DNA from: Verrucomicrobiota bacterium
GTDB lineage: Bacteria; Verrucomicrobiota; Verrucomicrobiia; Chthoniobacterales; UBA10450
Direction of reading: 5' to 3'
DNA: 54,230 bases
NCBI GenBank assembly: GCA_003220005.1
Contig: QHRD01000048.1
Span: 1 to 54,230 of the forward strand
Positions 6,123-42,982 of the stretch are shown piece after piece. The notes under the pieces were generated by a model that saw only the letters and a list, made by a program, of their open reading frames with translations, searched no databases and was not told where the DNA came from. The position numbers and the translations under genes were made by a program. Every line of letters starts with the position of its first letter. Position 1 is the stretch's first letter.

Positions 6123-6166
6123 AAGCCAACGCCCAACGCCCAACGCAGAGCGAGCACTCCTGCTCG
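6123..6166. repeat. Short tandem repeat and hairpin in the gldA-gldF spacer
   Basis: Three tandem copies of CAACGCC/CAACGCA at 6127-6146 are followed by a 6-bp perfect hairpin, CGAGCA-CTCC-TGCTCG, at 6151-6166. It lies between two genes of one operon, so it is more likely an inserted repeat or mRNA-processing structure than a terminator; there is no T-run. Confidence 0.5.
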
Positions 6167-15944: not shown

Positions 15945-16751
15945 CGGCAGCTGGATACGGTTGTGCCTTTCGAAGATGCACACCTGGCGAATCCCAAAGT
16001 TCGCCATCTTTTGCGCGAGGTTTAGAAATTTGTCGCCCAGTTGCGCGTGTGAATGCGCGTCAGATGCGGTAGTGAAAGGAATCCCATTCTGTATTGCCAG
16101 CTCAATGATCCGATCGCTTGGATAAAGCTCGTTCACTGGCTTGCGCCATCCCGCGGTGGAAAGCTCAATCGCGAGATTCCGCGCACGAATAAAATCGAGT
16201 GTTTCATCAACCAAACTGCCGATCTCGGCGTCTGGCCGATGACCGTGGATTTTGATGAGATCGAGATGGGCGAGACAATCAACCAACCCCGTCGCTGCTA
16301 TTTCGCGGACACGGCGAAAGTAATCGGTGTAAATCGCATCGACGCTCCGGCCTTTGAATTGCGCTGCGCCATCCGGCACGCTATCGAACATCTGATCGGG
16401 GCGATCAAGGAAATGAACCGAGCCCAGGACAAAATCGAGCTTGTCCCAATGTTTCTCAATCCACTTTCGGCCAGCGGCGGAGTGAATCGGATCGTTATCG
16501 AGCTCGATTCCCGCCCGGATTCGCAAATCGGGATTTCTTTCACGCAAACGATCGATTTCATCGAAGTCGATTCCGGCGTGATAACGATCATGATCGGTGA
16601 AAGCGATGTCGCTTAGTCCCAATCTGCGCGCTGAATCCGCCCAGGGCTGAAGCAACGCCTGTGTGTACCTCTGCACCCGGTGTCCCTGTGGATGAGTATG
16701 GTAGTCGGAGAAAAGTTGATAGTTTTTAGTTGATAGTTGATTGACCGCCAC
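15939..16751 (-). CDS. PHP-domain phosphoesterase, HisK-like
   Basis: A 270-residue metal-dependent phosphoesterase of the PHP superfamily. The metal ligands are visible: DYHTHPQGH (residues 17-25), FTDHDRYHAGID, AGIELDND, SVHFLD, CLAHLDLIKIHGH and TTASDAHSHAQLG. The pattern fits histidinol-phosphatase-type PHP enzymes, but no his genes are nearby and the substrate is not known. The start is a GTG at 16751. The first ~16 residues (containing NQLSTKNYQL) are encoded by an A/T-rich dispersed repeat (16711-16743), so the N-terminus before SDYHTH is not ancestral to the family. It is convergent with DUF72 and overlaps it by six bases. Confidence 0.85.
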   Translation of the reverse strand: MAVNQLSTKNYQLFSDYHTHPQGHRVQRYTQALLQPWADSARRLGLSDIAFTDHDRYHAGIDFDEIDRLRERNPDLRIRAGIELDNDPIHSAAGRKWIEKHWDKLDFVLGSVHFLDRPDQMFDSVPDGAAQFKGRSVDAIYTDYFRRVREIAATGLVDCLAHLDLIKIHGHRPDAEIGSLVDETLDFIRARNLAIELSTAGWRKPVNELYPSDRIIELAIQNGIPFTTASDAHSHAQLGDKFLNLAQKMANFGIRQVCIFERHNRIQLPL

Positions 16752-29300: not shown

Positions 29301-29461
29301 AATGACGAAGCACGAATGTCGAATGTCGAAACAACTCCGAATGACGAAGCACGAAAATGCGGCATCCGTTAGAGGAACTTTTCGTCATTTGACCCCGAAA
29401 GCATTCGCGGGTTGACCTTCGTCATTCCTTCGTCCTTCGTCATTCGGATTTCGTCATTTAT
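29301..29461. repeat. AATGACGAAGCACGAA repeat cluster
   Basis: AATGACGAAGCACGAA occurs at 29301-29316 and 29339-29354, and inverted forms (TTCGTCATT) are at 29379-29387 with single mismatch and 29419-29427, plus CTTCGTCATTCGG and TTTCGTCATTT at 29436-29460. The whole 170-base gap between the small membrane protein and the HAD gene is essentially this degenerate inverted-repeat cluster. Confidence 0.75.
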
Positions 29462-41764: not shown

Positions 41765-42982
41765 TCATCGTCCAAATTTCCCCGCTGCGAGTAACAACGC
41801 TCGATCAATTACTCCGAATCCTTTTCGTTTGAGAGTGGCTGCCGTCGCAGCAGCTTGTTCCAAGCCTTCACCGAAGCGCTCGGGGGCGAAATTTGCTGAA
41901 ATCCTGTAGCTGGCATCGGCGAGGCGCATTCGTTCGTCATCCGATAGCAAAGCCATCCTGAACAGCTGCGAGCCCAGTTCATGTTCATCGAAGGGATCAA
42001 ACGTGAATCCATTGTCCCCAACCAGCTCTGGCACGCATCCGCAGCGCTCCGACACAATCACCGGCAACCCAGATGCGATGGCTTCATTCACAACCAATCC
42101 CCACTGCTCAGTCGTGCTGGCATGAACAAACGCCTTGGCCAATGCGTAGTAAACCGGCAACTCCTGGTATTGTTTAAAACCGGGAAGGTGCACGTGAGTG
42201 TGCAGACAGAGGTCGGATATCAGACGACAGAGGTCAGATTTCAGTGGCCCATCACCAAGGATCACCAGATGCCATTTCTCTGTGTTCTGGCCTTCGACAT
42301 CAGACATTTGGCGATAGCGCGCATAGGCGCGCAGCAATGTCCGCAAGTTCTTTTTCTCAATGAATCGGGCTGAAGCAAGAAAGTAATTCTCCGGCAGCCC
42401 ATACTTTTTTCGAATTTCGTATTTCGAATTTCGTATTTCGAGAGCGCGCTGCGCAAAGTGCTCGTTGTCCACAACATCATACCCAGTAAAGACGCGCTCT
42501 CGTGGCATTCCAAGTTCAGCGAGATAGTCAACATGACGTTGACCTCCTACGAGCGCGGTAGAGTACAGACCGACAGTCTGTCGCTTGATCATTTCCTTCC
42601 ACCACGTGCGAGGTTCGTCCTGGCGAGCGCTCTCAGACATTACTAGCATCGGTATCCCACGACGCACACAACAATGCGCGGCAATTAGCGATCCGAAATT
42701 GTTCCAGCCGTTAACCGCTACTACATCAGGCTTCGCCTGCTTCAACGCCCACCCAAACGCTCGCCGAAGTTGGGCCTTCGCCGGGTATTGGTCTGTTGCT
42801 TCCGGAAACAGAGAAGCCTTGTGATAGCGGGCAGGAGAGTCCGCTCCGCCCCACGCATCGTCTGCCTTAGCTGACCATTCAATGCCGGTCACCGACAATC
42901 TGTCGGCCGCCGTGTTAAGTCGCGCATGGTGATAAGGACCAATGTGATGAAAAATAACGGCGATGGCAGGCTTGCGCTCCAT
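41765..42982 (-). CDS. GT4-family glycosyltransferase with two or three embedded repeats
   Basis: 405 residues, GT-B fold: FHHIGPYHHARL at the N-terminus, YFLASARFIEKKNLRTLLRAY, LVILGDGPL and ALAKAFVHASTTEQWGLVVNEAIASGLPVIVSE with the Glu pair. Two segments look foreign to the family: EIRNSKYEIR (residues 182-191), encoded by a 14-bp direct repeat at 42411-42440, and KSDLCRLISDLCL (248-260), encoded by a 21-bp direct repeat at 42207-42244. A third, DVEGQNTEKW (228-237), may be an eroded copy. All are in frame and in surface loops of the predicted fold. The start is an ATG at 42982, seven bases after the small gene upstream. Confidence 0.88.
   Translation of the reverse strand: MERKPAIAVIFHHIGPYHHARLNTAADRLSVTGIEWSAKADDAWGGADSPARYHKASLFPEATDQYPAKAQLRRAFGWALKQAKPDVVAVNGWNNFGSLIAAHCCVRRGIPMLVMSESARQDEPRTWWKEMIKRQTVGLYSTALVGGQRHVDYLAELGMPRERVFTGYDVVDNEHFAQRALEIRNSKYEIRKKYGLPENYFLASARFIEKKNLRTLLRAYARYRQMSDVEGQNTEKWHLVILGDGPLKSDLCRLISDLCLHTHVHLPGFKQYQELPVYYALAKAFVHASTTEQWGLVVNEAIASGLPVIVSERCGCVPELVGDNGFTFDPFDEHELGSQLFRMALLSDDERMRLADASYRISANFAPERFGEGLEQAAATAATLKRKGFGVIDRALLLAAGKFGR
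42207..42244. repeat. 21-bp direct repeat (CAGAGGTC[A/G]GAT) inside the GT4 gene
   Basis: CAGAGGTCGGAT at 42207 and CAGAGGTCAGAT at 42228 repeat with 21-base spacing. Read on the coding strand they give SDLCRLISDLC. The unit length keeps the frame. Confidence 0.8.
42411..42440. repeat. 14-bp direct repeat (CGAATTTCGTATTT) inside the GT4 gene
   Basis: CGAATTTCGTATTT occurs at 42411-42424 and 42425-42438. It is A/T-rich against its GC-rich surroundings. It is read in frame as EIRNSKYEIR and sits just before KKYGLPENYF. Confidence 0.85.

Follow-up and report, generated by a model that had tools for sequence, protein, structure and literature searches.

The window examined here, the whole stretch of 54,230 nucleotides at positions 1 to 54,230 of contig QHRD01000048.1 (GCA_003220005.1; Verrucomicrobiota, Chthoniobacterales, UBA10450), carries on its minus strand a glycosyltransferase gene of family GT4 that contains three short arrays of 7-bp units (heptamers), all read in frame:

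41765..42982, minus strand: GT4 glycosyltransferase gene, GT-B fold, 405 amino acids (aa), assigned with Pfam, AlphaFold2 and Foldseek
42407..42440, minus strand: site 1, heptamer array, (CGAATTT.CGTATTT)x2, on the coding strand CGAAATA/CGAAATT, encoding EIRNSKYEIR (aa 182-191)
42272..42310, minus strand: site 2, eroded heptamer array, in a loop of variable length, encoding QMSDVEGQNTEKW (aa 225-237)
42206..42245, minus strand: site 3, degenerate heptamer array, CAGAGGT.CGGATAT.CAGACGA.CAGAGGT.CAGATTT, encoding SDLCRLISDLC (aa 249-259)

The protein matches Glycos_transf_1 (PF00534) in Pfam with E=2.5e-28, its AlphaFold2 model has a mean predicted local distance difference test score (pLDDT) of 87.9, and the closest structural matches returned by Foldseek are MshA, BshA and PimB'; the Glycos_transf_1 domain and two Rossmann-like domains place it in the GT-B fold. 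At site 1, TTTCGAATTTCGTA is present twice within 42408-42435, whereas at site 3, whose coding-strand units read CTGACCT/CTGTCGT/CTGATAT/CCGACCT/CTGTCTG, GACAGAGGTCRGATNTCAG is present twice at 42205-42244, 21 bp apart, a spacing of three heptamers. The original prediction, made from the letters of the window, had described two direct repeats of unlike make-up in this gene, both in frame, plus a possible eroded third. The repeats are real, in frame and several in one gene, and their units do differ, but they are not unrelated, since they have a 7-bp period in common. When each base is compared with that seven positions on (lag 7), site 1 is the best match of 54,197 equal-length segments in the 54 kb and site 3 lies in the top 0.1% (56 of 54,191), whereas site 2 (CAAATGT CTGATGT CGAAGGC CAGAACA CAGAGAA, in heptamer register) reaches only the top 0.7%, which is weak alone. 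Site 2 is convincing as an eroded array because the orthologs L054 and L057 hold intact CAGAGGT heptamers at the same position, which bears out the earlier suspicion about the third segment. The repeat listing of the window contains no inverted repeat spanning the site 1 or site 3 array, so these are neither palindromes nor hairpins, and by sequence none of the three sites is a repetitive extragenic palindrome (REP) of the GTAG type, that is, an imperfect stem-loop with terminal GTAG.

The segments had been expected to be loops between conserved blocks, absent from orthologs. In the AlphaFold2 model, sites 1 and 3 are instead helices of high confidence, site 1 spanning the end of helix 173-184 plus helix 187-194 and site 3 falling in helix 248-257, which rules out a loop location for both. 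Only site 2 is a true length-variable loop, its aligned region ranging from 20 to 50 aa across relatives, with nested palindromes there in orthologs. We aligned 16 congeneric orthologs with four outgroups, two from other families of the order (L062, L063), one labelled Acidobacteria (L085) and one from Thiocapsa (L086). Every congener whose sequence covers site 3 has it at the same length, as do L085 and L086; L062 and L063 are longer there, and no ortholog in this alignment has an empty site 3. Site 1 is likewise of constant length in the congeners, except in L047, L052 and L055, which bear nested palindromic inserts; among the outgroups L062 and L085 have the same length, L063 exceeds it and L086 falls 4 aa short. 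Since length is kept at both sites in congeners (nested palindromes aside) and in half of the outgroups, the arrays at sites 1 and 3 are not insertions, unless an equal deletion accompanied each insertion, and the expectation that orthologs lack exactly these segments fails. Sites 1 and 3 are therefore predicted GT-B helices whose DNA was overwritten.

What changes at these positions is the unit. At site 1 some species have the CGAATTT type, (GAAATTC)n, and others the CAGAAGT type, (GAAGTCA)n, while site 3 holds either the CTCAACT type, (CTCAACT)n, or the CTGACCT type, (CTGACCT)n. The array is missing at site 1 in L058-L060, which form one clade, and in the outgroups L062, L085 and L086, and at site 3 all four outgroups are array-free. 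Measured across the full aligned segment, lag-7 identity comes to approximately 0.3-0.6 where arrays are present (lower if palindromes are nested) and approximately 0.2-0.3 in array-free outgroups. On a GT4 tree built without the site columns, which is weak within one group and unreliable in the placement of the outgroups, at least five state changes are required at site 1 and at least seven at site 3. The sisters L053 and L054 (support 96/95) differ in unit family at both sites, and the sisters L046 and L050 (support 100/99) differ at site 3.

The periodicity resides in the DNA and not only in the peptide. For ten arrays the same peptide was re-encoded 20,000 times with codons drawn by usage, and 0 to 0.3% of the draws attained the 7-bp periodicity observed (P <5e-5 to 0.003); against random codings of their own peptides, sites 1 and 3 were more periodic at lag 7 with P=0.0009 and P=0.003, respectively. 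On this basis a periodicity driven by the peptide was rejected. Because 3 does not divide 7, a uniform array has the same 7-residue peptide repeat in each of the three frames of its strand, so that any phase of a stop-free array is readable; the same rule was noted for the stops of TAACTGA repeats, which fill all three frames in one orientation (PMC4679880). Arrays in genes nearly always have the orientation that is free of stops: in 60 of them, a stop occurred only on the non-coding strand in 31, on neither strand in 28 and only on the coding strand in one.

The GT4 arrays are part of a larger population. The source bin is 2.53 Mb in size and 82% complete, and those of its near relatives that bear names are metagenome-assembled genomes (MAGs) from soil, "Verrucomicrobia bacterium AV.." and "Chthoniobacterales bacterium". 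With up to one mismatch, CGNATTTCGNATTTCG has 13 matches in the genome against 0 for the reversed control, and CAGANNTCNGANNTCAGA has 28 against 2, which excludes that the repeat DNA of the GT4 gene is unique and confirms that it is dispersed, as had been proposed; for CTCAACT the reversed control is invalid, because reversal of the pattern only gives a rotation of that array. We found approximately 10 arrays in 272 kb of the genome's own sequence, from which approximately 90 per genome are estimated, and at a strict threshold lag 7 gave the most arrays both there and in 229 kb of a congener, with none in Markov shuffles. In 170 kb of coding sequence of the genus from four genes, with an array defined as at least 17/21 matches, lag 7 gave 60 arrays, lag 9 two, and lags 4, 5, 6, 8 and 10-13 none. 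Period 7 is thus the dominant repeat length in the source genome and its congeners, and the arrays, as consecutive 7-bp units dispersed in the genome, are heptanucleotide tandem repeats. Across 914 kb of the genus we counted 81 distinct arrays, which fall into 33 unit classes and consist of 4-7 units, none exceeding 7. Two random arrays have a unit class in common 5.6% of the time against 0.09% expected, i.e. 63 times expectation. A few arrays lie near the starts of open reading frames (ORFs), but many are internal to genes.

Beyond the genus, dispersed arrays also occur in G154, a member of another family in the class with its chromosome assembled as one 5.96-Mb contig; they are mostly of the CTCAACT type, in a sample partly selected around CTCAACT matches. 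Some of these stand as inverted pairs a few dozen bases apart (L347:6404-6496, L354:8-148, L364:4987-5092) and could form hairpins. Genus g23 (G078, G084, G087, G090, G137) differs from the source genus with its dispersed short arrays: each genome has CTCAACT at one locus only, as a tandem array.

Orthologs of aconitase, PurL and ThiC (approximately 30 each) also contain in-frame arrays, with different families by species in homologous loops, such as SQKSEVGSQRSE, SSQPSTLNSQ and AQSTINNQPST in aconitase and KRRTPNAQRPTPNG, EKLSTLNPQPSTL and SSFVIRHSS in ThiC. PurL loop 1 is short and array-free in order-level outgroups, and insertion therefore applies there. A PurL loop at alignment columns 705-734 (L318, L334, L335 and others) carries GTAG-type REPs and REP dimers, GTAGCCGG...CCGGCTAC, in frame, at a position that is a single residue in some congeners and most outgroups shown. 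Within the GT4 orthologs L048, L052, L055 and L056, a palindrome CCGCCTTCGCC(A/G)AGGCTACGGCGG and the shorter CCGCCTCAGGCGG sit in frame inside the heptamer arrays of sites 1 and 2; matches to the 24-bp palindromic form are confined to this genus among the 58 genomes searched. Y1_Tnp/RAYT (REP-associated tyrosine transposase) proteins are common in the genus. As a source of the heptamers the RAYT genes were rejected, being abundant but suited to palindromes. Outside genes, a mosaic array (CGTCCTT-CGTCATT-CGGATTT) lies at 29426-29453 of the window, 5' of a HAD phosphatase gene, and the orthologous 5' region in G010 (L129:1867-1905) has an array of another family. Further arrays, apparently intergenic, lie at 6125-6153 (CCAACGC type) and 16714-16741 (AGTTGAT type).

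The arrays are thus a genus-wide class of short imperfect heptanucleotide arrays, genic and intergenic, of approximately 33 interrelated types, in which position is conserved, the unit is interchangeable, length is fixed at helices and free in loops, and orientation is filtered. Our data suggest that these are probably dispersed repeats: misaligned templating or conversion would start the arrays, even out their units and exchange one family for another, with selection on frame and fold acting as a filter. Copying misaligned by 7 nt, followed by a return to register, would introduce substitutions without a change in length, and conversion, or recombination with similar arrays at other places, may exchange units. 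Families that share a register agree at 4-5 of 7 bases (GAAATTC/GAAGTCA; CTCAACT/CTGACCT), an agreement that would permit homeologous pairing between them. Selection would then retain those events that keep the frame, introduce no stops and fit an amphipathic helix or a loop, the arrays themselves being most likely neutral and without a function of their own in the enzyme. Several points weigh against this explanation. None of the GT4 arrays has been traced to a donor copy, nor was an event captured between near-identical genomes, no such strains being compared. The divergent tract in L046/L050 extends to the left beyond site 3, so allelic recombination is likely involved in that difference, and part of the family switching may be ordinary allelic recombination. 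Three of the four genes surveyed (aconitase, ThiC and PurL) were picked for arrays in the source genome, the orthologs are not independent of one another, and the genomes of the genus are mostly MAGs of 150-570 contigs. Lastly, the common unit families require dispersal or a strong sequence preference, either of which may apply.

The main rival is local slippage without dispersal, in which arrays arise in place from chance 7-bp near-repeats and common units reflect a mutational preference with no copying between loci. It would account for mosaic arrays with stepwise unit change, such as that at 29426-29453, and misaligned templating fits change at fixed length, yet we consider it unlikely given the excess of unit sharing between loci, a unit spectrum that is lineage-specific (that of G154 being mostly CTCAACT, with the sampling noted above) and the lack of the long arrays that free slippage should produce. 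Less probable by a good margin is the insertion of mobile short elements resembling the Rickettsia palindromic elements, as the original prediction had it. Such insertion does hold for site 2, PurL loop 1 and the REP-containing loops, where order-level outgroups are without the segment, and it agrees with the palindromes that lie inside sites 1 and 2 in congeners and with the abundance of Y1_Tnp/RAYT proteins; at sites 1 and 3, however, it conflicts with the length kept by palindrome-free congeners and two of the four outgroups in each case, and the heptamers form no palindromes.

That the protein is selected for heptad-like amphipathic helices and the DNA periodicity is a by-product appears very improbable. 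Outgroup helices have a similar hydrophobic pattern at site 3, and the helices are confidently predicted, but codon choice makes the DNA 7-periodic beyond what the peptide demands, and the same units occur in intergenic DNA and in unrelated loops. Slightly more improbable still would be a functional DNA or RNA signal located in genes by chance, for example a regulator site as proposed for the TAACTGA repeats (PMC4679880). That precedent and the inverted array pairs of G154 speak for it, whereas some 33 unit types, often different at equivalent positions and with no common motif found, and positions inside the coding regions of unrelated enzymes, speak against it. An assembly artefact of metagenome bins deserves next to no credence: the fragmented MAGs of the genus invite the suspicion, but the pattern recurs in many independent MAGs, the reading frames remain open, and the presence of arrays in the single-contig chromosome of G154 means that MAG assembly is not the cause.

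Heptamer repeats are already known (PMC4679880; PMC4692102), as are in-frame palindromic repeats in Rickettsia and Opitutus terrae (PMC3733652). TAACTGA direct repeats occur in Beggiatoaceae, cyanobacteria and Bacteroidetes (MacGregor 2015, PMC4679880) and resemble the present arrays in their 7-bp units, their dispersal, sets that are mostly short, at 2-6 copies in the BOGUAY genome, and the occurrence of insertions in ORFs, but they lie mostly in intergenic DNA beside start codons and, within ORFs, mostly at protein ends (PMC4679880), whereas our arrays have many unit types, are internal to conserved enzymes and switch units at fixed length; TAACTGA is not among the 33 unit classes in the 914 kb. 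The GGGAATC / GGGGA(T/C)T heptamers of Xanthomonas and Nostoc also form heterogeneous short arrays that vary between close relatives, but they are G-rich, quadruplex-forming and discussed mainly as intergenic (PMC4692102). Rickettsia palindromic elements are likewise short repeats in frame inside functional protein genes; they are palindromic and inserted, whereas at GT4 sites 1 and 3 tandem arrays without palindromes take the place of codons, in line with the earlier remark that the sequences look unrelated. GTAG-type REPs inside genes are most numerous in O. terrae and occur in Verrucomicrobia in frame in housekeeping genes including uvrA (PMC3733652), comparable to the REP dimers in the PurL loops of the present genus, but GT4 sites 1 and 3 have no stem and a 7-bp period.

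The over-representation of heptamers in bacteria has been noted before, but the literature found gives no detailed mechanism and takes a mainly intergenic view. In the open-licence literature we found no paper on heptamers in Verrucomicrobia and no description of heptamer arrays of several families taking the place of codons in conserved enzymes, with length kept and families exchanged; the new part is this fixed-length overwriting with unit turnover. It is possible, if somewhat doubtful, that a lineage-specific templated mutation turns coding DNA into 7-bp arrays at constant length and, by writing interchangeable families again and again into the same helices and loops of conserved enzymes, acts as an internal generator of protein sequence. 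With approximately 34 related genomes, the genus allows swaps of repeat families to be traced at the same sites in conserved enzymes. Where the 7-bp period comes from can thus be tested directly, as can the degree to which folded helices tolerate sequence encoded by repeats. Taken as a whole, the arrays suggest a little-studied mutational process that reshapes proteins.
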